Assembly: GCF_002093745.1 (NCBI RefSeq)
Contig: NZ_MTSB01000010.1
Coordinates: forward strand, 124,001 to 188,000
DNA from: Pseudomonas graminis
GTDB taxonomy: Bacteria > Pseudomonadota > Gammaproteobacteria > Pseudomonadales > Pseudomonadaceae
Length of the DNA: 64,000 nucleotides
Reading direction: 5' to 3'
Positions within the stretch are counted from its first letter, which is position 1, and each line of letters opens with the position of its first letter. Position numbers and translations under genes: made by a program. The notes below the pieces were generated by a model. It saw only the letters and a program-made list of their open reading frames with translations. It did not search any database and was not told the origin of the DNA. Shown here piece after piece: positions 29,582 to 43,392 of the stretch.

Positions 29582-30229
29582 ATGACTCTGCGCTCGGAAA
29601 TTCTTGTGAACAAAAACGTACTGCCTACCGCCGAACAAGCCATCCCGGGTCGTGAAACACCTATGGCGCTTCCGGAAACTCACTTCGTCAACGGCAATCC
29701 GTTGCTGGGGCCATTCTCGAGCAACGTGGAATTCGCCATCTTCGGCATGGGCTGCTTCTGGGGCGCAGAACGTCGCCTGTGGCAACAGGAAGGTGTTGTC
29801 AGCACCGTGGCGGGTTACGCCGGCGGGTTCACACCGAACCCGACCTACGAAGAAGTCTGCTCCGGCCTGACCGGCCACACCGAAGTGGTGCTGGTCGTCT
29901 ACGAGCCTGAAAAGATCAGCTACGAATCGCTGCTCAAAGTGTTCTGGGAAGCACATAACCCGACTCAGGGCATGCGTCAGGGCAACGACATCGGCACTCA
30001 GTACCGCTCGGTCATCTACTGCACGACGCCTGAACAGCTCGCCACCGCCAAAGCCAGCGCTGACGTGTTCCAGGCCGAACTGAACAAAGCCGGCCTGGGC
30101 GGGATTACCACCGAAATCGAAGAAGCCCCGACGGTCTATTTCGCCGAGGCGTATCACCAGCAATACCTGGCCAAGAACCCGCAGGGCTACTGCGGCCTGG
30201 GCGGCACCGGGGTTTGCCTGCCGGCTTGA
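29582..30229 (+). CDS. msrA: Peptide methionine sulfoxide reductase A
   Basis: MsrA reduces methionine-S-sulfoxide in proteins. The 215-residue product has the active-site [10 protein letters not shown] with the nucleophile Cys, [19 protein letters not shown], and a C-terminal pair of cysteines for recycling in CGLGGTGVC. The ATG at 29582 follows GAGGA. Its final 31 codons plus the 3' flank are duplicated immediately downstream. dipA precedes it and rlmJ converges on it, as in P. aeruginosa. Confidence 0.97.
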
Positions 30230-30622
30230 GCTGGCTGACTGGCAGGAAAAGGCAACTATGCCTTGTTAGCAGGATAAGTGGGAGCGAGCTTGCTCGCGAA
30301 GGCAATGGTTCAAACGCCCTGTTTTCGGGGACTGCACTGGCCCTTTCGCGAGCAAGCTCGCTCCCACAAAAGCTCATTCTACTTCGCCGAAACCTACCAT
30401 CAGCAATACCTGGCCAAAAACCCGCAGGGCTACTGCGGCCTGGGCGGCACTGGGGTATGTCTGCCGGCTTGAGCTGGCTGACTGGCAGGAAAAGGCAACT
30501 ATGCCTTGTTAGCAGGATAAGTGGGAGCGAGCTTGCTCGCGAAGGCAATGGTTCAAACGCCCTGTTTTCGGGGACTGCACTGGCCCTTTCGCGAGCAAGC
30601 TCGCTCCCACAAAAGCTCATTC
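30137..30622 (+). repeat. 243-bp tandem duplication of the msrA 3' end and REP pair
   Basis: Copy 1 (30137-30379) holds the last 31 codons of msrA, 45 bp of spacer and an inverted REP pair (30278-30367). Copy 2 (30380-30622) repeats this at an exact offset of 243 bp. The portion after the stop codon is identical in both copies, whereas the coding portion differs at about ten positions, nearly all synonymous. The REP arms read GGGAGCGAGCTTGCTCGCGA and its complement. Confidence 0.92.
30380..30472 (+). pseudogene. msrA C-terminal fragment (second copy)
   Basis: These bases encode the last 30 residues of an MsrA ([13 protein letters not shown] then [17 protein letters not shown]) with a stop, but there is no start or catalytic domain. 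It is the coding part of the second copy of the 243-bp duplication and differs from the intact gene by one amino acid (T for A) and by several synonymous third-position changes. Confidence 0.9.
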
Positions 30623-30690
30623 ATTGCTGCGCCTGGGAATACAGAACCTCTCGCACCCTTCGGGCTTCAGAGTGGTCACGGCTGGCTCAA

Positions 30691-31527
30691 TTACTCGGCG
30701 ATCAACCAGTCCATCTTCCAGCCGCCTTGGGTCTGGCCCAGCTTGTCGGCCAGGTACGGCATAAATTCGCGTAGTTCTTCTTCAAGCCCCCACGGCGGAT
30801 TGGCGATAGCCAGGCCGGAGCCGTTCAGGCTCGCTGGCTTGTCCAGCGGATGGACATACAGCTCGACGCGTAGCAGCTTGGGTGCGCCGGTTTCTGCCAA
30901 GTCCTGATAGAAACGCCGCAGCAGGCGCGGGTCCTTGATCGGGTACCAGATCGCGGCCACCGTCTGGCGCATGCGCCCGATGGTTTCCTTGAGCGCTACA
31001 GCGCAGCGTTTCATTTCATCGAGTTGCTCGAACGGCGGGTCGATCAGCATGACGGCACGCTTTTCAGCGACAGGCAGCAAGGCGCGTGGCACGTGCCAGC
31101 CCTCCCCCAGATGCACCGCAACGCGGCGGTCGCCTTTCATGTTCTCCTTGAGCAGACGCCCGTCTTCAGGGTGCTTTTCGTTAAGCAACACACGCTCGCG
31201 CTCGCGAGTCAGGCGACGGGCCAGCTCAGGCGAACCGGGGTAGTAGCGCAGTTCGCCATCGGGGTTCATGTCGTGCAGCACTTGCAGGTAATCAGCCGCC
31301 AGCGCAGGCAGGTCGGGGGTGTTCCACAGACGACCGATGCCTTCCAGCCACTCGCCGGTGCGGGTGGCCTGATCGCCTTTGAGGTCGTACAGCCCGAGAC
31401 CGGCGTGGGTGTCGAGGTAGGCGAACGGCTGATCCTTGCGCGCCATCAGGGCGATCAAGCGAGTCAGGGTCAGGTGTTTGAACACGTCGGCGTGGTTGCC
31501 GGCATGGTAGGCGTGACGGTAATTCAT
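30691..31527 (-). CDS. rlmJ: 23S rRNA (adenine2030-N6)-methyltransferase
   Basis: RlmJ makes m6A2030 in 23S rRNA. The 278-residue product begins MNYRHAYHAGNHADVFKHL, the RlmJ signature, and has the SAM-binding DTHAGLGLYDL and the catalytic DPPFEQ. The frame stays open to 31734, but only the start at 31527 (after AGGAG) gives the family N terminus; the extension runs into a structured RNA element. It converges on msrA across the REP duplication. Confidence 0.95.
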   Translation of the reverse strand: MNYRHAYHAGNHADVFKHLTLTRLIALMARKDQPFAYLDTHAGLGLYDLKGDQATRTGEWLEGIGRLWNTPDLPALAADYLQVLHDMNPDGELRYYPGSPELARRLTRERERVLLNEKHPEDGRLLKENMKGDRRVAVHLGEGWHVPRALLPVAEKRAVMLIDPPFEQLDEMKRCAVALKETIGRMRQTVAAIWYPIKDPRLLRRFYQDLAETGAPKLLRVELYVHPLDKPASLNGSGLAIANPPWGLEEELREFMPYLADKLGQTQGGWKMDWLIAE

Positions 31528-36098: not shown

Positions 36099-36341
36099 GG
36101 ATTGCCCCTACCTTTTTACTCTTGCTCGGGACGTTCGCGTTTCTTGTCGATACCGGCATTTCTGACAGTTACGCGAAACTCCTTCCCATGCTCAACTTGA
36201 GTCGCGGTGAATCGAATGCCTCAGGCACGATGGCCGGCGATTATCAGAGCTGTAGGACTGCTGAAATAACCAGACCCAAGGATCGGGCTGGACCGCGTGC
36301 CTGAAAACACTGTGTACATCCAACGGACGGAGACACGAACC

Positions 36342-38774
36342 ATGCTCAACCCTAACGTCATAAAGCAATATAAAAACAAGAAAATCGATGCAGCCTCTGA
36401 CATGCCGGACATCAGAGGCAAGAAGATACTGATGGGCTTCTGGCATAACTGGGGTTCTGAACCGGGCCAGGGTTACCAGCAGGGTCTGTTCAAGGAAATG
36501 GCGCTGACTGACATTCCAAAAGAATATAACGTTGTGGCCGTGGCGTTCATGAAAGGCGCTGGCATCCCCACCTTCAAGCCCTATAACCTGAGCGACGCTG
36601 ACTTTCGCGACCAGGTGGCGCAACTGAATGCGCAAGGCCGTGCGGTGCTGATTTCCCTCGGCGGGGCTGATGCGCATATCGAGCTATGCACTGGCCAGGA
36701 AGAAGCGCTGGCGTATGAAATCATTCGTTTGGTTGAAGTCTATGGCTTTGACGGTCTGGACATCGACCTTGAGCAAGCCGCCATTACGTTTGCCGATAAC
36801 CAGACCGTATTGCCAGCGGCACTGAGAATGGTACGCGAGCATTACGAAACCGAAGGGAAGCATTTCATCATCAGCATGGCACCGGAGTTCCCCTACCTGA
36901 GAGCCCCTCAAAAACTGGCGATCTTTAACGAGATCAGGAAGTACTTTCCCTTCCTGAACCCGCTGGTGTCGTTTCTTGAATCGCTTAGAACCCAAGGTGC
37001 GTACATCAAATATATCGAAGCGCTGGAGGACATTTACGACTTCATCGCACCCCAGTATTACAACCAGGGGGGTGACGGTGTCTGGGTCGATGAGCTGAAC
37101 ATGTGGGTCACTCAAAGCAACGATGCCCTGAAGAAAGAGTTTCTTTACTACCTGACCGATAGTTTGATCCACGGTACACGTACCTACACAAAAATCCCGG
37201 CCGACAGGCTGGCTATCGGTCTACCCACCAACAGAGACGCCGCCGCTTCCGGTTACGTGATTGATATTAATCACGTCAAAAATGCACTGAAAGAGCTGGA
37301 GGACGCTGGTAATCCTATTCGCGGTCTGATGACCTGGTCAGTCAACTGGGATGCCGGAAAAAACAAGGCAGGTGAGGAATACAACTGGGAATTCAAGAAT
37401 CGTTATGGCTACTTGACCGGAGGTGAGACGCCTGTGCCTGACACACCGTCAGTGCCTGCCGGCCTCAAATCAACCGAACAGACTCCGACATCGGTGACAC
37501 TGAGCTGGTCGCCCTCGACAGGCGCGCACCCGATCCGGCAATACGAGTTGCGCCGCAACAACAGCGACGCCCTGTTCTCGGACAGCCCAGCTTACACTGA
37601 TACCGGCCTTCAGCCTGGCACCACTTACAGCTACCAGGTGCGTGCGATAGATGTCATGGGCAACACCTCTGCATTTTCCGCAGCGCTCAGCGTACTGACG
37701 CAGGGGCAAGGCGGAGGTAATACAAAACCGACCGCGCCCGTTTTGAGCCTTGAAGAGGTCACAGAAAACAGCGTAACGCTGACATGGACGGAGTCCACCA
37801 GTAACAGCGAAATCAAAACGTATGTCGTTGAACGGGATGGCTGGCCTTTAGAAATAACCTGGAGTATCGAGACTCGCTACGTCGATAACAACCTCATTCC
37901 CAGTACCAACTATGAATACCGCGTCTTTGCGCAGGATGCCGAATCTGAGTATTCACCGCCCGGTAATTTGCTGAAGGTCCGGACCGGTGACGGCCCGCCT
38001 GTACCCCTCAACCCCCCAGAGCCTGATGACTTGAGATCAACCGTACAGACCACATCGTCGGTGACGCTGGAGTGGAGCCTTGTCGAACACCCTCATGGTC
38101 CGGTTGTCTATGAACTGGTCAGGGATAAGGTCCCGCTGGGTACAGTCGAAAAGCCTCCTTTTACCGACACAGGGCTCTCGCAAAGCCACCTGTATGGTTA
38201 TCAGATCAAGGCAACGGACAGTCTGGGGAACAGTTCCATACTGTCTGAAGAAATCCTGGCGACAACCAAGAGTGTGCCATCTCCTGATCGGCCTAACCCT
38301 CCTGAAAACCTGCGTCAGACAGGCGCAACGGCGACCAGTGTTTCATTACAGTGGGACAAGCCTCAAAGCCCCTCGAAAAATGGGAACACGCTCTCAAGCC
38401 CTACTGAAGTAGCGTCTTACCATGTTTACTACATCGGCGGTAAAACAGTGAATCTTGATTCAACGACGTTCACGTACACCGCTGAAGGGCTGACCGCTGG
38501 CAAGATGTACCAGTTTTTGATAGGCGCGCGGAATATAGACTCAGACCTATCTGGCCCCAGCAATGTTGTGCAGGCGTTCACCAGCGCGGCATTGGACGAG
38601 TGGGCACAGAATGTTGAATACGTGAAAGGCGATAAGGTGACGTATAACGGCGCTACTTATATCTGCATCAATCCTCACCGCTCACAATCAGACTGGGCGC
38701 CAGGCAGTGCGCCGACCTTATGGGAGCTCTGGGTAGAGAAGGTGTATCGCGACCTCCCAAAAGAATGGCAGTGA
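36342..38774 (+). CDS. GH18 chitinase with FN3 repeats and a chitin-binding module
   Basis: This 810-residue protein has a GH18 catalytic domain (residues 25-360) with the catalytic motif FDGLDIDLEQ (acid Glu144), MAPEFPY and QYYN, then four fibronectin type III modules (about 366-453, 463-548, 555-643 and 650-748), and a CBM5/12-type module (about 754-800, EYVKGDKVTYNGATYIC). The ATG at 36342 follows ACGGAG; a GTG at 36297 would add 15 residues. No signal peptide is seen in either form. GC content looks lower than in flanking genes, which fits acquisition by transfer. A terminator follows. Confidence 0.88.
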   Translation: MLNPNVIKQYKNKKIDAASDMPDIRGKKILMGFWHNWGSEPGQGYQQGLFKEMALTDIPKEYNVVAVAFMKGAGIPTFKPYNLSDADFRDQVAQLNAQGRAVLISLGGADAHIELCTGQEEALAYEIIRLVEVYGFDGLDIDLEQAAITFADNQTVLPAALRMVREHYETEGKHFIISMAPEFPYLRAPQKLAIFNEIRKYFPFLNPLVSFLESLRTQGAYIKYIEALEDIYDFIAPQYYNQGGDGVWVDELNMWVTQSNDALKKEFLYYLTDSLIHGTRTYTKIPADRLAIGLPTNRDAAASGYVIDINHVKNALKELEDAGNPIRGLMTWSVNWDAGKNKAGEEYNWEFKNRYGYLTGGETPVPDTPSVPAGLKSTEQTPTSVTLSWSPSTGAHPIRQYELRRNNSDALFSDSPAYTDTGLQPGTTYSYQVRAIDVMGNTSAFSAALSVLTQGQGGGNTKPTAPVLSLEEVTENSVTLTWTESTSNSEIKTYVVERDGWPLEITWSIETRYVDNNLIPSTNYEYRVFAQDAESEYSPPGNLLKVRTGDGPPVPLNPPEPDDLRSTVQTTSSVTLEWSLVEHPHGPVVYELVRDKVPLGTVEKPPFTDTGLSQSHLYGYQIKATDSLGNSSILSEEILATTKSVPSPDRPNPPENLRQTGATATSVSLQWDKPQSPSKNGNTLSSPTEVASYHVYYIGGKTVNLDSTTFTYTAEGLTAGKMYQFLIGARNIDSDLSGPSNVVQAFTSAALDEWAQNVEYVKGDKVTYNGATYICINPHRSQSDWAPGSAPTLWELWVEKVYRDLPKEWQ

Positions 38775-38839
38775 TCCCGGTACTGACACATGCCTGCCGT
38801 AATCGCTCATGAAAAGGGCGCGGTAGCGCAATGATGAAG

Positions 38840-38887
38840 CGACTTATCCACAGAGCCTCAGGGTATTCATGGATAAGTCGTTTTTTT
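38840..38887 (+). terminator. Rho-independent terminator of the chitinase gene, with a DnaA-box-like arm
   Basis: CGACTTATCCA and TGGATAAGTCG form a perfect 11-bp stem with a 19-base loop and a T7 tail (38881-38887). It lies 66 bp after the chitinase stop. The left arm and first loop bases contain the 9-mer TTATCCACA (38844-38852), making the hairpin part of the DnaA-box cluster. Confidence 0.85.
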
Positions 38888-39011
38888 AAGGGCCAGATAG
38901 CTCGGAGATCAATGGTTTATCCGAGCTACTTTTCAGGCAAGCCGCTGTCTATTTTTTGCTCAAACGGCTGCAACCGGCGTTTTTAGTGGCGTACAGAAGA
39001 ACGCAAACACC

Positions 39012-39396
39012 TTATCCACAGAGACACCAACAGGCTTTGGGCATAACTTTATAAACGCAAGCGCTGCTGTGGACAACGTTCAGAATGGCTGGAAAGAATG
39101 CGACTGAATGAATACGACACCCTCAGCGCCAAGCCCTGATCACTTTTTGAACGATTCTTTAGAAGCCTCTGTTTAAAAGGCTTCCAGACGACCATGAACA
39201 ACTTATCAACAGGCAGGCCAACAGGGATTGTGGGCAAGTCAGACGTACTTTTTGTACAGCCTCCGAAAAAAACCAATAAAAATAATGGCTTAAGCTGATC
39301 GTTTTTTGAACAGCATGACACAGACCACGTTTTACAAGGGCTTCAGGCTTTCACAAACATATTATCCACAGCCGCACGCACAGAGATTGTGCGTAA
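39012..39396 (+). repeat. 35-bp inverted DnaA-box element, three copies
   Basis: Three copies (39012-39046, 39203-39237 and 39362-39396) share one geometry: a plus-strand box (TTATCCACA, TTATCAACA, TTATCCACA), and starting exactly 26 bases later a minus-strand box-like 9-mer (TGGGCATAA, TGTGGGCAA, TGTGCGTAA). An ACAG begins 18 bases after each plus box. The spacer between copies is 144-156 bp and otherwise AT-rich. It occupies the 643-bp chitinase-etfB gap, which has no gene. Confidence 0.7.
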
Positions 39397-39417
39397 GTGC
39401 AGCGAAGCAACCGCGCC

Positions 39418-40224
39418 TCACCTCAAAACCCCCTCATCGACCAACAGTTTCAGGATGGCAGCCGCTCCTTCATCAGGGTGTACGCCCTTCAACACCTGCC
39501 CACCGCCCCCACTTGCCTTGGCGGTGGCCGCTTTCATACGATCAGCACCGCTCTTGGCCTTGATGACTTTCAGACGTTTCGGCCGTGGCCTGGCGGCTTG
39601 CAGCGCGTGGTCAGTGAATAACTCATCGACCACCCTTTGAGTCTCACTGACGTCCAGCGCGCCGCGCTGCGCAGGGCCGAACGCACTTTGTCGGGGTTTG
39701 GGAGCTGCGTTATCCACAGTTGCCACAAACGGCAAGCGAACCTTGAGGCGGCGACGTTGACCACGCGGCAGGGCTTGCAGCACCAGCGCAGTGCCGTTAT
39801 CCAGTGACTCGACCTCTGCCAGCCCTGTCACCACTGGCCAGCCGAGGCCCTCGGCCAGCAGAAATGGCAGCATGCCAGAGCCTTCACCGGTTTCAGCCTG
39901 GCTGCCGGCCAACACCAACTGCGCACCCGAGTCGCGTATGTACTCCGTCAACGCGAACAGTGCATCGTCACCGTCTGCCTGCTCAAGCACATGCAGCTCG
40001 CTCAAGCCCATTCCCAGGTAGGCGCGCAAGGCGGGTTCTTCAGGATTGCCGGCATGCAACACTTGCAAGTTATCCCCAGCCAGCTGCAAGCCAAGCTCTA
40101 CTGCGCGTGCGTCCTGTTCAGCGCGTCGCGCCCGACCGGATGTCGGGTGCGCGCCCACAGAAACAAGGCCGATGACGGACACCGCCGGTTTATCCACAGA
40201 CGAATCATTCAGTTCAGGCTGCAT
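39418..40224 (-). CDS. etfB: Electron transfer flavoprotein beta subunit (betaine cluster)
   Basis: This 268-residue ETF beta subunit should pair with EtfA upstream to carry electrons from dimethylglycine demethylation to the respiratory chain. Visible are the family core SELHVLEQADGDDALFAL, GSQAETGEGSGMLPFLLA and PRGQRRRLKVRLPFVATV. The ATG at 40224 is preferred to a GTG one codon earlier. It overlaps the end of etfA by 11 bp. It is a paralogue-type protein of the glycine-betaine cluster, not the general ETF. Two DnaA-box 9-mers lie within it. Confidence 0.88.
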   Translation of the reverse strand: MQPELNDSSVDKPAVSVIGLVSVGAHPTSGRARRAEQDARAVELGLQLAGDNLQVLHAGNPEEPALRAYLGMGLSELHVLEQADGDDALFALTEYIRDSGAQLVLAGSQAETGEGSGMLPFLLAEGLGWPVVTGLAEVESLDNGTALVLQALPRGQRRRLKVRLPFVATVDNAAPKPRQSAFGPAQRGALDVSETQRVVDELFTDHALQAARPRPKRLKVIKAKSGADRMKAATAKASGGGGQVLKGVHPDEGAAAILKLLVDEGVLR

Positions 40225-41434
40225 CACGCGTCTCCCCGTTACGCCATGCGTCGACCGCTGCGATCAAGGCCCTCAGGATGTCGGCACTGTCACCAATCAC
40301 TGACAAGTCAGCACGCTTGATCATGTCGCAGCCTGGGTCCAGATTGATCGCAATGACCTTGTCGCAGGCACCGATACCTTGCAGGTGCTGGATGGCCCCG
40401 GAAATACCCACAGCCAGATAAACCCGTGCCGTGACCCACGTGCCGCTCGCGCCCACCTGACGCTCACGTCCCATGTAACCGTCGTCCACCGCCACCCTAG
40501 AGGCACCCTCAGTTGCGCCGAGCGCCATCGCTGTGCGGTGAAAAAGATCCCAGTCCTTGACGCCATTACCGCCCGACAGAATGAACTCTGCTTCAGCCAT
40601 GGGGATAACGGCAGGATCGACAGCAACCGCGCCAAGGTCCTCGATACGCGGCAGGCTACGCGCCACGTCTGTGGATAACTCGACGGGCAATGCTTCATGC
40701 CGGGTTTCGCTGACAGGCTCGGCGCACTCGACAGCGGCCAGAATGAGACGTGCCAATGGCCGAACCAGGTCTTCACGCCCTGCCCCGGCGCGACTGATGC
40801 ACTGTTGGTCTTTGATCTGCCAGACGCGCGTCGCGGGGCGCTCGCCGAGGCTGGCTGCAAAACGTCTTCCCAGTTCGCCACCGCCAGTGCGGCTGTCAGG
40901 AAGTAACCAGTGCCGCGGGCTGAACTGGTTATCCACAGCACACAGCCCTTGCACACGTTGCTCAGGTGAATAACCGCTGAACGCATTGCCGTCGAGCAGC
41001 AACAGGCGATCCACCCCCGACGTATCGAACGCGGTCTCTTTATGTTCGCCGAACACAACCGCCAGCACTGCGCCGTCGGCACCCGCCAACTGGCGCGCCA
41101 GGCCCAGCAGGTCGCGGTCATGGCTGGTCAATCGACCGCCGACCATGTCGGGAACAACGCTGATGTAGAACGCTGGCTCGGCCACCGCGAACAGCGGCAG
41201 CTGGACCTCGGCTGCGACCGAGCGCCTGACGGTGCCGCCCTGTTGCGCGCCACTGCGGTCGATGCGCTTGATACCGTTCGGCCCCATGAAGCCCAGGCCA
41301 TGCACGTTCTTGCGCATCAACCCGTTTGGCCCCATCCAGCTGCTTTGCGCAGGTTGCATCGCCGCGTGCAGCGGGTGCAGACGATTGCGGGTAATCCATT
41401 CGGCCCGCGGATCGCGGCGGATAATATCGCTCAT
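40214..41434 (-). CDS. etfA: Electron transfer flavoprotein alpha subunit (betaine cluster)
   Basis: This 406-residue ETF alpha subunit has an N-terminal extension (residues 1-70 with KNVHGLGFMGPNGIKR) and the FAD-binding C terminus (YLAVGISGAIQHLQGIG, NLDPGCDMIKRADLSVIGD). It lies between dgcB (TGATG overlap) and etfB (11-bp overlap), so translation is tightly coupled. It likely accepts electrons from DgcA/DgcB. The 9-mer TTATCCACA occurs inside on both strands; on one it forces a rare TTA leucine codon. Confidence 0.88.
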   Translation of the reverse strand: MSDIIRRDPRAEWITRNRLHPLHAAMQPAQSSWMGPNGLMRKNVHGLGFMGPNGIKRIDRSGAQQGGTVRRSVAAEVQLPLFAVAEPAFYISVVPDMVGGRLTSHDRDLLGLARQLAGADGAVLAVVFGEHKETAFDTSGVDRLLLLDGNAFSGYSPEQRVQGLCAVDNQFSPRHWLLPDSRTGGGELGRRFAASLGERPATRVWQIKDQQCISRAGAGREDLVRPLARLILAAVECAEPVSETRHEALPVELSTDVARSLPRIEDLGAVAVDPAVIPMAEAEFILSGGNGVKDWDLFHRTAMALGATEGASRVAVDDGYMGRERQVGASGTWVTARVYLAVGISGAIQHLQGIGACDKVIAINLDPGCDMIKRADLSVIGDSADILRALIAAVDAWRNGETRDAA

Positions 41435-43392
41435 CAGAGCACCTCCGCAGGTTCACGTTTTGCAGAGGCCGGGCTGGGGATAACGTCATCGATCAGCGCG
41501 TCAGCCACCAGTTCGGCAATGTCCTTGATGGGCGGACGCGGTTCGACAACACCTTCGAGCATGGCCGTGCATTGTGGACAACCCACTGCCACCAGCTCGG
41601 CGGCGGTCTCGCGAATGTCTTCCATGCGCATGTCGGGAACTCGCTGTCTGCCGGGGATATCAGTAATGGGCGCGCCGCCACCGCCACCACAGCAACGAGA
41701 GCGAAAGCCCGAGCGCTGCATTTCCTGGAGGTCGATCCCGAGCGCACGCAGCACATCGCGTGGCGCTTCATATTCGCCGTTGTAACGGCCCAGGTAACAC
41801 GGGTCGTGATAGGTCACGCGGGTGCCTTTGTGCTGACTCAGGTTCAGTGCGCCGCTCTTGATCAACTCAGCCATGAACGTGCTGTGGTGCTGCACCTGAT
41901 AGTCGCCTCCCAGCGCGCCGTATTCGTTTTTCAGCACATGAAAGCTGTGCGGGTCGCAGGTGACGATGCGCTTGAAGCGGTAGTGAGCCAGGGTCTGGAT
42001 GTTGCGGCGGGCGAGCATCTGAAACGTCGCTTCATCGCCCAGACGTCGTGCCACGTCGCCACTGTCCCGCTCTTCGAGGCCCAGCACGGCGAAATCGACC
42101 TTGGCCGCTTTGAGGACTTTGACGAAGGCACGCAGGGTGCGTTGATTGCGCATATCGAAGGCGCCATCGCCGACCCAGAACAGCACGTCAGCGGTCTTGC
42201 ATTCGCTGAGCAGCTTCAGGTTCAGATCCGCCGCCCAGTTCATCCGCCCGCCCGGTGCGAAACCGCCGGGGTTGTCGGTGGCGATCAGGTTATCCAGTAC
42301 TTCGGCGCCCTTGTTCGGCGTCGCGCCTTTTTCCAGGGTCAGGTAACGGCGCATGTCGACGATGGCATCAACATGCTCGATCATCATCGGGCACTCTTCG
42401 ACACACGCACGGCACGTGGTGCAGGACCACAACGTCTCGGCGTCCACCAGACCGTTGACGATAGGCTGATGCGGATGGCCGCCATGCTCGCCCAGCGGCT
42501 TGCCTTTGCCGTCCAGCGATGGATACGGGCTGCCGGCGAATTTCGCGTCGGTGCCACCGGCCAGACCGACGACCATGTCCTGAATCAGCTTCTTGGGGTT
42601 CAGCGGCTGACCTGCCGCAAACGCCGGGCACGCGGCTTCACATTTGCCGCACTGTACGCAGGCGTCGAAGCCCAGCAGTTGATTCCAGGTGAAGTCTTGA
42701 GGTTTCTCCACACCCAACGGAGCAGTCCGGTCGTTCAGGTCCAGCGGTTTCAAGCCGGTGGAGCGTCCGCCGCCAAAGCGCTCGGCGCGCCGGTGCCAGG
42801 CCAGGTGCAAGGCACCGGCAAAGGCGTGCTTCATCGGCCCGCCCCAGGTCATGCCGAAAAACAGTTCGCTCACGCCCCACAGCACGCCCAACCCAAGGAC
42901 GACCACCAGCACCCAGCCGCCGAAATGCTCTGGGAGAATGCCGGCAACCGGCAACGTGACCAGAAAAAAGCTCGCGGAAAACGCCATCAGGCTTTTCGGC
43001 AGGCGCATCCACGGGCCTTTCGACAGGCGCGCAGGCGGGTTGAGACGACGACGGTAGACAAACACCGCGCCGACGAACATGACCGCCGTCATCAGCAGCA
43101 GCGCGTAGCCAAGCACGCGGTTATGCAGACCGAAACCATGCACCAGAATCGCCAGCACTATCGAGGCGACGGCTCCGCCCGCGGTGGCTACGTGGGTGTT
43201 GGCGATATATTTGTCGCGTGCGACCACATGATGGAGATCGACCATGTAACGCTTGGGCATGGCCAGCAGACCGCCGAGCAGATCGACTTTCGCAGGCCGG
43301 CCGTTACGCCACATGTTTACCCGCCGCCATGCGCCCAGCGCCGCGAGGGCCAGGGCGCTGAACAGCAGGATGGGAAGAAGGGTGTCTAGCAT
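41434..43392 (-). CDS. dgcB: Dimethylglycine demethylase iron-sulfur subunit
   Basis: DgcB is a membrane-associated iron-sulfur protein of 652 residues. The first 220 hold about five membrane helices (MLDTLLPILLFSALALAALG start). Two 4Fe-4S motifs (CVQCGKCEAACP and CTTCRACVEECP) and two CCG domains (with CCGGGGGAP) follow. The ATG at 43392 is used by relatives; the frame extends to 43428. It overlaps etfA by one base and lies downstream of dgcA, separated by about 185 bp with a REP-like sequence. Confidence 0.92.
   Translation of the reverse strand: MLDTLLPILLFSALALAALGAWRRVNMWRNGRPAKVDLLGGLLAMPKRYMVDLHHVVARDKYIANTHVATAGGAVASIVLAILVHGFGLHNRVLGYALLLMTAVMFVGAVFVYRRRLNPPARLSKGPWMRLPKSLMAFSASFFLVTLPVAGILPEHFGGWVLVVVLGLGVLWGVSELFFGMTWGGPMKHAFAGALHLAWHRRAERFGGGRSTGLKPLDLNDRTAPLGVEKPQDFTWNQLLGFDACVQCGKCEAACPAFAAGQPLNPKKLIQDMVVGLAGGTDAKFAGSPYPSLDGKGKPLGEHGGHPHQPIVNGLVDAETLWSCTTCRACVEECPMMIEHVDAIVDMRRYLTLEKGATPNKGAEVLDNLIATDNPGGFAPGGRMNWAADLNLKLLSECKTADVLFWVGDGAFDMRNQRTLRAFVKVLKAAKVDFAVLGLEERDSGDVARRLGDEATFQMLARRNIQTLAHYRFKRIVTCDPHSFHVLKNEYGALGGDYQVQHHSTFMAELIKSGALNLSQHKGTRVTYHDPCYLGRYNGEYEAPRDVLRALGIDLQEMQRSGFRSRCCGGGGGAPITDIPGRQRVPDMRMEDIRETAAELVAVGCPQCTAMLEGVVEPRPPIKDIAELVADALIDDVIPSPASAKREPAEVL

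Follow-up and report, generated by a model that had tools for sequence, protein, structure and literature searches.

The control of replication initiation by DnaA-box loci outside oriC has been worked out in detail mainly for E. coli. The map positions of DARS1 and DARS2 in that organism are given in PMC4585315, which also places datA 10 map minutes from oriC. According to PMC10380432, the hallmark of DARS is a pair of boxes, I and II, arranged head-to-head across a 5-bp spacer, an arrangement that is called essential; the same source describes DARS-like sequences in many proteobacteria, and Pseudomonas may therefore already be listed among them. Clusters of DnaA boxes near oriC are also described as restraining untimely initiation in B. 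subtilis and Streptomyces coelicolor (PMC4585315, PMC10950094).

The locus described here lies at the etfB and etfA genes of Pseudomonas, and it shares with the B. subtilis and Streptomyces clusters the presence of DnaA boxes near oriC, a likeness by description and not by sequence. With oriC it has in common a dense grouping of strong and weak boxes, but dnaA, preceded by a box cluster of its own, sits on a different contig (C39:151962-153473) from the etf locus, which is on C1. In the arrangement of its boxes and its chromosomal place the locus resembles the DARS/datA class, a likeness from which we do not conclude membership of either.

The DnaA-box cluster at etfBA

Seven exact copies of the 9-mer TTATCCACA lie within 2.1 kb of the window (the whole 64-kb stretch of DNA analysed), each at the position and on the strand reported in the initial annotation, and a scan of the full 64 kb bore out that it contains no other copy. 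The several near matches mentioned there correspond to five one-mismatch boxes between 38.7 and 41.5 kb (39068 (-), 39203 (+), 40070 (+), 40600 (-) and 41475 (-)), out of 13 in the window. In 100 dinucleotide shuffles of the window TTATCCACA occurred 0.18 times on average and at most twice, and in the whole genome (5.69 Mb, 42 contigs) it has 104 exact matches where the reversed 9-mer used as a control has 13, an approximately 8-fold excess. At this genome density a 2.1-kb stretch should hold 0.038 copies, and a Poisson estimate puts the chance of finding at least seven boxes together anywhere in the genome at about 6e-11; the shuffles and this estimate together rule out chance clustering. Among the 100 of 104 copies that were listed, the etf stretch has the highest density (seven in 2.2 kb) and is followed by five copies just before dnaA and by three stretches with four, which contradicts a genome-average density at this locus and puts it ahead of oriC. 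The etf locus is also the densest among the 100 of 125 copies listed for P. cerasi (the other 25, by list order, are located past 5.74 Mb or on different replicons and are unranked), and 74 of these 100 boxes lie at most 1 Mb from dnaA.

Four of the seven exact boxes fall inside the genes and three in the gap behind them. Both genes are on the minus strand, with etfB (39418-40227) coding for an ETF domain protein and etfA (40214-41434) for ETF alpha; the window also encodes an iron-sulfur protein with DUF3483 and an FMN oxidoreductase, which we take from the gene order to be dgcB and dgcA, respectively. The gap contains three array units on the minus strand, each with the layout I-5-II-3-III-2-IV: unit 1 (39351-39396, strong box 39362-39370), unit 2 (39192-39237, strong box 39203-39211 with one mismatch, TTATCAACA) and unit 3 (39001-39046, strong box 39012-39020). 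Their matches to a unit profile in their own genome have E values of 5.2e-12, 5.1e-9 and 6.5e-13.

The remaining exact box (38844-38852) lies in the stem of a terminator-like hairpin (38836-38884, plus strand; predicted fold -23.2 kcal/mol, z -6.3) located 3' of a GH18 chitinase-like gene (36297-38774, plus strand). The hairpin was revealed by folding, having been missed by the rule of the terminator scan (loops of 3-8), and the full unit layout was looked for and not seen at 38836-38884. Promoter and terminator scans of 38600-39500 gave results at about the chance level, and no Rfam match was obtained for 38000-41600. A functional part for the chitinase gene is ruled out, the array sitting at other distances from etfB elsewhere; because the array keeps its build with other DNA between itself and etfB, we consider this gene an accessory neighbour. 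Further away, a repeated stretch at 30105-30774 yields duplicated spurious peptides on both strands and presumably consists of REP-type extragenic repeats.

A conserved unit in a phased series

The comparison set comprised 80 named loci together with 92 loci from 99 evenly drawn genus genomes, etfB being present in 93 genomes when the window's own is included. Boxes recur at matching places relative to etfB across the compared loci. The repeat found behind etfB has a unit that reads TTRCCCMCA, 5 bp, TGTTGGCG-, 3 bp, TGTGGATAA, 2 bp, TGTTCGC, a consensus built solely from Pseudomonas sequences. Arrays of at least two units in series (chained from units of at least 22 bits on one strand and at most 215 bp apart) are present in 76 of the 92 other genus genomes with etfB, a count drawn, as are the other conservation counts, from related genomes. 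The non-conservation at other etfAB loci that the initial annotation had allowed for is contradicted by this result.

The array is mostly found just downstream of etfBA and is sometimes displaced. Exact boxes alone identify a module of three or more in the examined stretches of 61 of the 92 genomes, while the unit sequence profile located arrays with unchanged spacings in 11 further genomes that seemingly had none (in each genome 150 of about 800-1600 candidates were scored, and the matches are those among the ones listed). Array loss is thereby ruled out in these 11, where displacement or a change of contig is seen instead: the array lies ~11-12 kb from etfB in six genomes, lies ~32 kb away and inverted in one, and is on another contig than etfB in four. 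One more array lies 7.3 kb from etfB. Within the stretches examined no array was found in 16 of the 92 genomes, and among the 80 named loci it is present in 65 and absent in 15, within stretches of 10.8-20.8 kb; the array-poor relatives evidently live without it. On a tree of etfA and etfB the array occurs in 77 of the 81 tips of one clade, window included, and its presence changes three times, most simply through one gain and two losses, although the tree is midpoint-rooted and this history is as short as an ancestral array followed by three losses. A gain is favoured because of the outgroup counts, which show no cluster at etfB outside the genus: the 18 etfB loci taken from the family's other genera (a count that excludes L272, a weak hit, and two loci from within the genus, L252 with six boxes and L258 with none) have no box cluster within flanks of ~1.5 kb, from which a displaced array would escape detection, and two of them carry one exact box.

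The spacing between units is regular. In four-unit arrays it falls into classes of about 128, 139, 150, 161, 172, 182 and 193 bp, with almost no spacings in between, and 384 of 391 unit intervals lie within 1.8 bp of a 10.7-bp ladder that was fitted, in both period and phase, to these very intervals. The seven off-ladder intervals (148, 166, 168 and four of 169 bp) deviate by up to 5.3 bp. For the 62 four-unit tips the rms deviation is 0.55 bp, against 3.1 bp if the units were unphased, and the spacing class changes on the tree 10, 7 and 6 times. Spacings between units thus shift in steps of whole helical turns. The simplest interpretation is that a change in length survives only if it amounts to whole turns, because DnaA molecules bound to adjacent units would have to make contact on the same side of the helix, presumably by looping, and the ladder would then be the evolutionary trace of a DNA loop. 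In the window the three units stand 159 and 191 bp apart; another 168 bp separate unit 3 from the box within the hairpin, and this fourth box is off the ladder.

The boxes inside the genes are coding box 1 (etfA, 40929-40937, plus strand, V-D-N), coding box 2 (etfA, 40670-40678, minus strand, L-S-T written as TTA-TCC-ACA), the box near the etfB start (40190-40198, plus strand, V-D-K) and coding box 3 (etfB, 39710-39718, plus strand, V-D-N), in agreement with earlier remarks on their reading frames, their presence on both strands and the TTA codon. All four are exact 9-mers. To gauge their conservation, codons were shuffled within each gene, preserving protein and codon usage, in 93 genomes (the even draw and the window). 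Coding box 1 is kept in 76 of the 93, compared with 1.6 in the shuffles (maximum 5), coding box 2 in 60 (0.04, maximum 1) and coding box 3 in 48 (4.8, maximum 11), while the etfB-start box is kept in eight (0.94, maximum 4). Coding boxes 1-3 thus exceed the codon-shuffle expectation, as anticipated by the proposal that the DNA rather than the peptide is conserved, and peptide conservation is ruled out as their sole cause. The three boxes accompany the array: coding box 1 is found in 74 of 76 genomes with an array and in 1 of 16 without, the corresponding numbers being 59 and 0 for coding box 2 and 47 and 0 for coding box 3; for coding box 1 the association is partly due to shared descent. They provide a clean example of protein-coding DNA constrained by a DNA-binding role.

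Resemblance to DARS and datA, and alternative readings

The E. coli sites were set by the map positions in PMC4585315 together with box content, the genome record annotating none of them. The DARS1 region reads TTATCCACT-5-TGTGGATAA-3-TGTGTATTA and the DARS2 region TTATTCACC-5-TGTGGATAG-3-TGTGAAGAA, and both share with the Pseudomonas unit the order of box I in the opposite orientation, 5 bp, box II, 3 bp and box III, with box I placed 26 bp, and box II 12 bp, ahead of box III. An offset scan from the strong box places the best DnaA-like 9-mer at -26 and in the opposite orientation, i.e., at the place of box I, where 226 of 242 units match at least 6 of 9 bases (z 4.7). The box II site at -12 is weak, with the right place and strand but 54 of 242 units matching at least 6 of 9 (z 2.0). 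Higher scores are reached at offsets -28, -25 and +12, of which -28 and -25 overlap the box-I site; better versions of box II occur in units elsewhere, such as CGTGGATAG (L286) and, from a weak match, TGTGGATAG (L281). In contrast to DARS, the strong box of the Pseudomonas unit is box III and box II is the weak one, a fourth site is added 2 bp further on, and the units stand in a phased series with additional boxes in coding sequence.

With datA the etf locus shares a box cluster outside oriC at a comparable distance. In a set of 33 genomes, the 26 with an array show distances between etfB and dnaA of 325-1115 kb, with a median of 529 kb or 8% of the genome and a single value above 660 kb; etfB is upstream of dnaA in 21 of them and downstream in five. 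Because the seven genomes without an array are equally distant (369-630 kb), this distance is a property of the neighbourhood and no argument for function. The two best E. coli datA boxes, moreover, lie on one strand and 162 bp apart, close to the 161-bp class of the Pseudomonas array. The locus might accordingly be a counterpart of datA, at which ATP-DnaA would be bound together with a bending protein and ATP hydrolysis after duplication of the site would damp re-initiation. We consider this unlikely, given that no conserved, position-locked IHF site, such as datA has between its essential boxes, was found in 144 intervals, where near matches show a modest excess (one-mismatch sites in 32, with no fixed place, against 20.3 expected, sd 3.6; exact sites in two against 1.1); exact sites were present in 12 of 124 modules, against 4.75 expected. 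Furthermore, the same scan did not find the DARS-type unit layout in the 7-kb E. coli datA region. IHF sites, together with Fis sites, are a feature of DARS2 as well. Of the suggestion that the cluster is datA-like, the distance from oriC and the same-strand boxes about 160 bp apart therefore stand, whereas no IHF site conserved in place was found in the array and the layout is that of a DARS core instead.

It is unlikely, too, that the boxes merely soak up DnaA near the origin. Exact boxes are indeed numerous, and the copies listed for P. cerasi crowd around dnaA, as has been reported for E. coli (PMC12371093), but plain titration requires neither helical phasing, nor a fixed layout of weak boxes, nor a conserved order, and seven of 104 boxes would make up a small part of the sink. 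The location of the boxes in and behind the operon could also mean that DnaA regulates transcription or termination of the etf/dgc genes and not replication. This is very unlikely, however, as the array remains intact at 7-32 kb from etfB, is inverted relative to it in one genome, and has its boxes at the far end of the operon instead of the promoter. Most improbable of all is that some other protein recognizes the unit, which would then contain the DnaA 9-mer incidentally: boxes II and IV are a weak fit to the DnaA consensus and related units are found elsewhere, yet the invariant core is a strong DnaA 9-mer (although the units counted had been selected by their exact boxes), the boxes crowd around dnaA, and those in coding sequence are kept as 9-mers.

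Possible role of the array and related units elsewhere

We think it likely, from the comparative data above, that the etf locus is a conserved chromosomal DnaA control locus outside oriC, whatever the sign of its effect. The initial proposal of a DnaA-related function at the DNA level is backed by conservation in the genus, by conservation beyond the peptide and by a box density above that of oriC. From the layout of the unit we lean towards DARS-type ADP release from DnaA, then datA-type ATP hydrolysis, then titration, and the DARS-type promotion of ADP release is put forward as a tentative assignment. In such a scheme DnaA, as the 9-mer suggests, would occupy the array units; successive units would face the same side of the helix, and DnaA on neighbouring units could meet by looping out ~150-193 bp. 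The looped complex may then adjust the amount of free initiation-competent DnaA, and a locus ~0.5 Mb from oriC would be duplicated early in each round. Possibly, then, many Pseudomonas carry a timing element of a new build, in which DARS-type units in helical register form a looped multi-DnaA machine ~0.5 Mb from oriC, complemented by boxes in a metabolic gene pair.

A search for the SeqA family gave no match in any of 40 genus genomes, while E. coli, one of the controls, was positive. No report of such a locus in Pseudomonas was found among the listed titles and abstract openings of a literature search. A conserved and deletable locus in Pseudomonas, given this negative SeqA search, would make the question of titration versus switch testable in a second lineage. 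If the proposed role is true, the related units at other loci, some of them in genomes without the etf array, would make the locus one node of a genus-wide, SeqA-free DnaA circuit.

A second conserved place with related units is L176:3491-3706, with relatives in L281-L285, L287, L288 and L300. These units are often about 337-375 bp apart, lie near ABC-transporter or short-chain dehydrogenase genes, and also occur in lineages without the etf array. L286:3923-5011 (G060) is a six-box array of units with steps of 124 and 225-227 bp, again in a genome without the etf array, and in a further genome of that kind boxes crowd around dnaA (G003 contig C1, ~1386000-1492000, with 10 in 1441796-1450411). 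At L177:4070-4509 there is a trio of boxes with spacings of 229 and 202 bp, of which two boxes are unit-like, and a similar trio occurs in P. cerasi (5084353-5084802).

A different arrangement is the palindromic, DARS1-type pair of strong boxes placed head-to-head, TTATCCACA-5-TGTGGATAA, which adjoins an FKBP gene in the window's genome (L275:5186-5208, G000 contig C9:43186-43208) and is also found at L276:4493-4515, at L277:4661-4683 and, from a position list alone, in G100; in three complete genomes it lies about 1.1-1.7 Mb from dnaA. Finally, a SoxG gene is adjoined by four boxes whose flanks are almost identical and whose spacings are 233, 233 and 319 bp (L175:5767-6560, G000 contig C1:105767-106560), and this stretch is probably a tandem repeat that contains a DnaA box.
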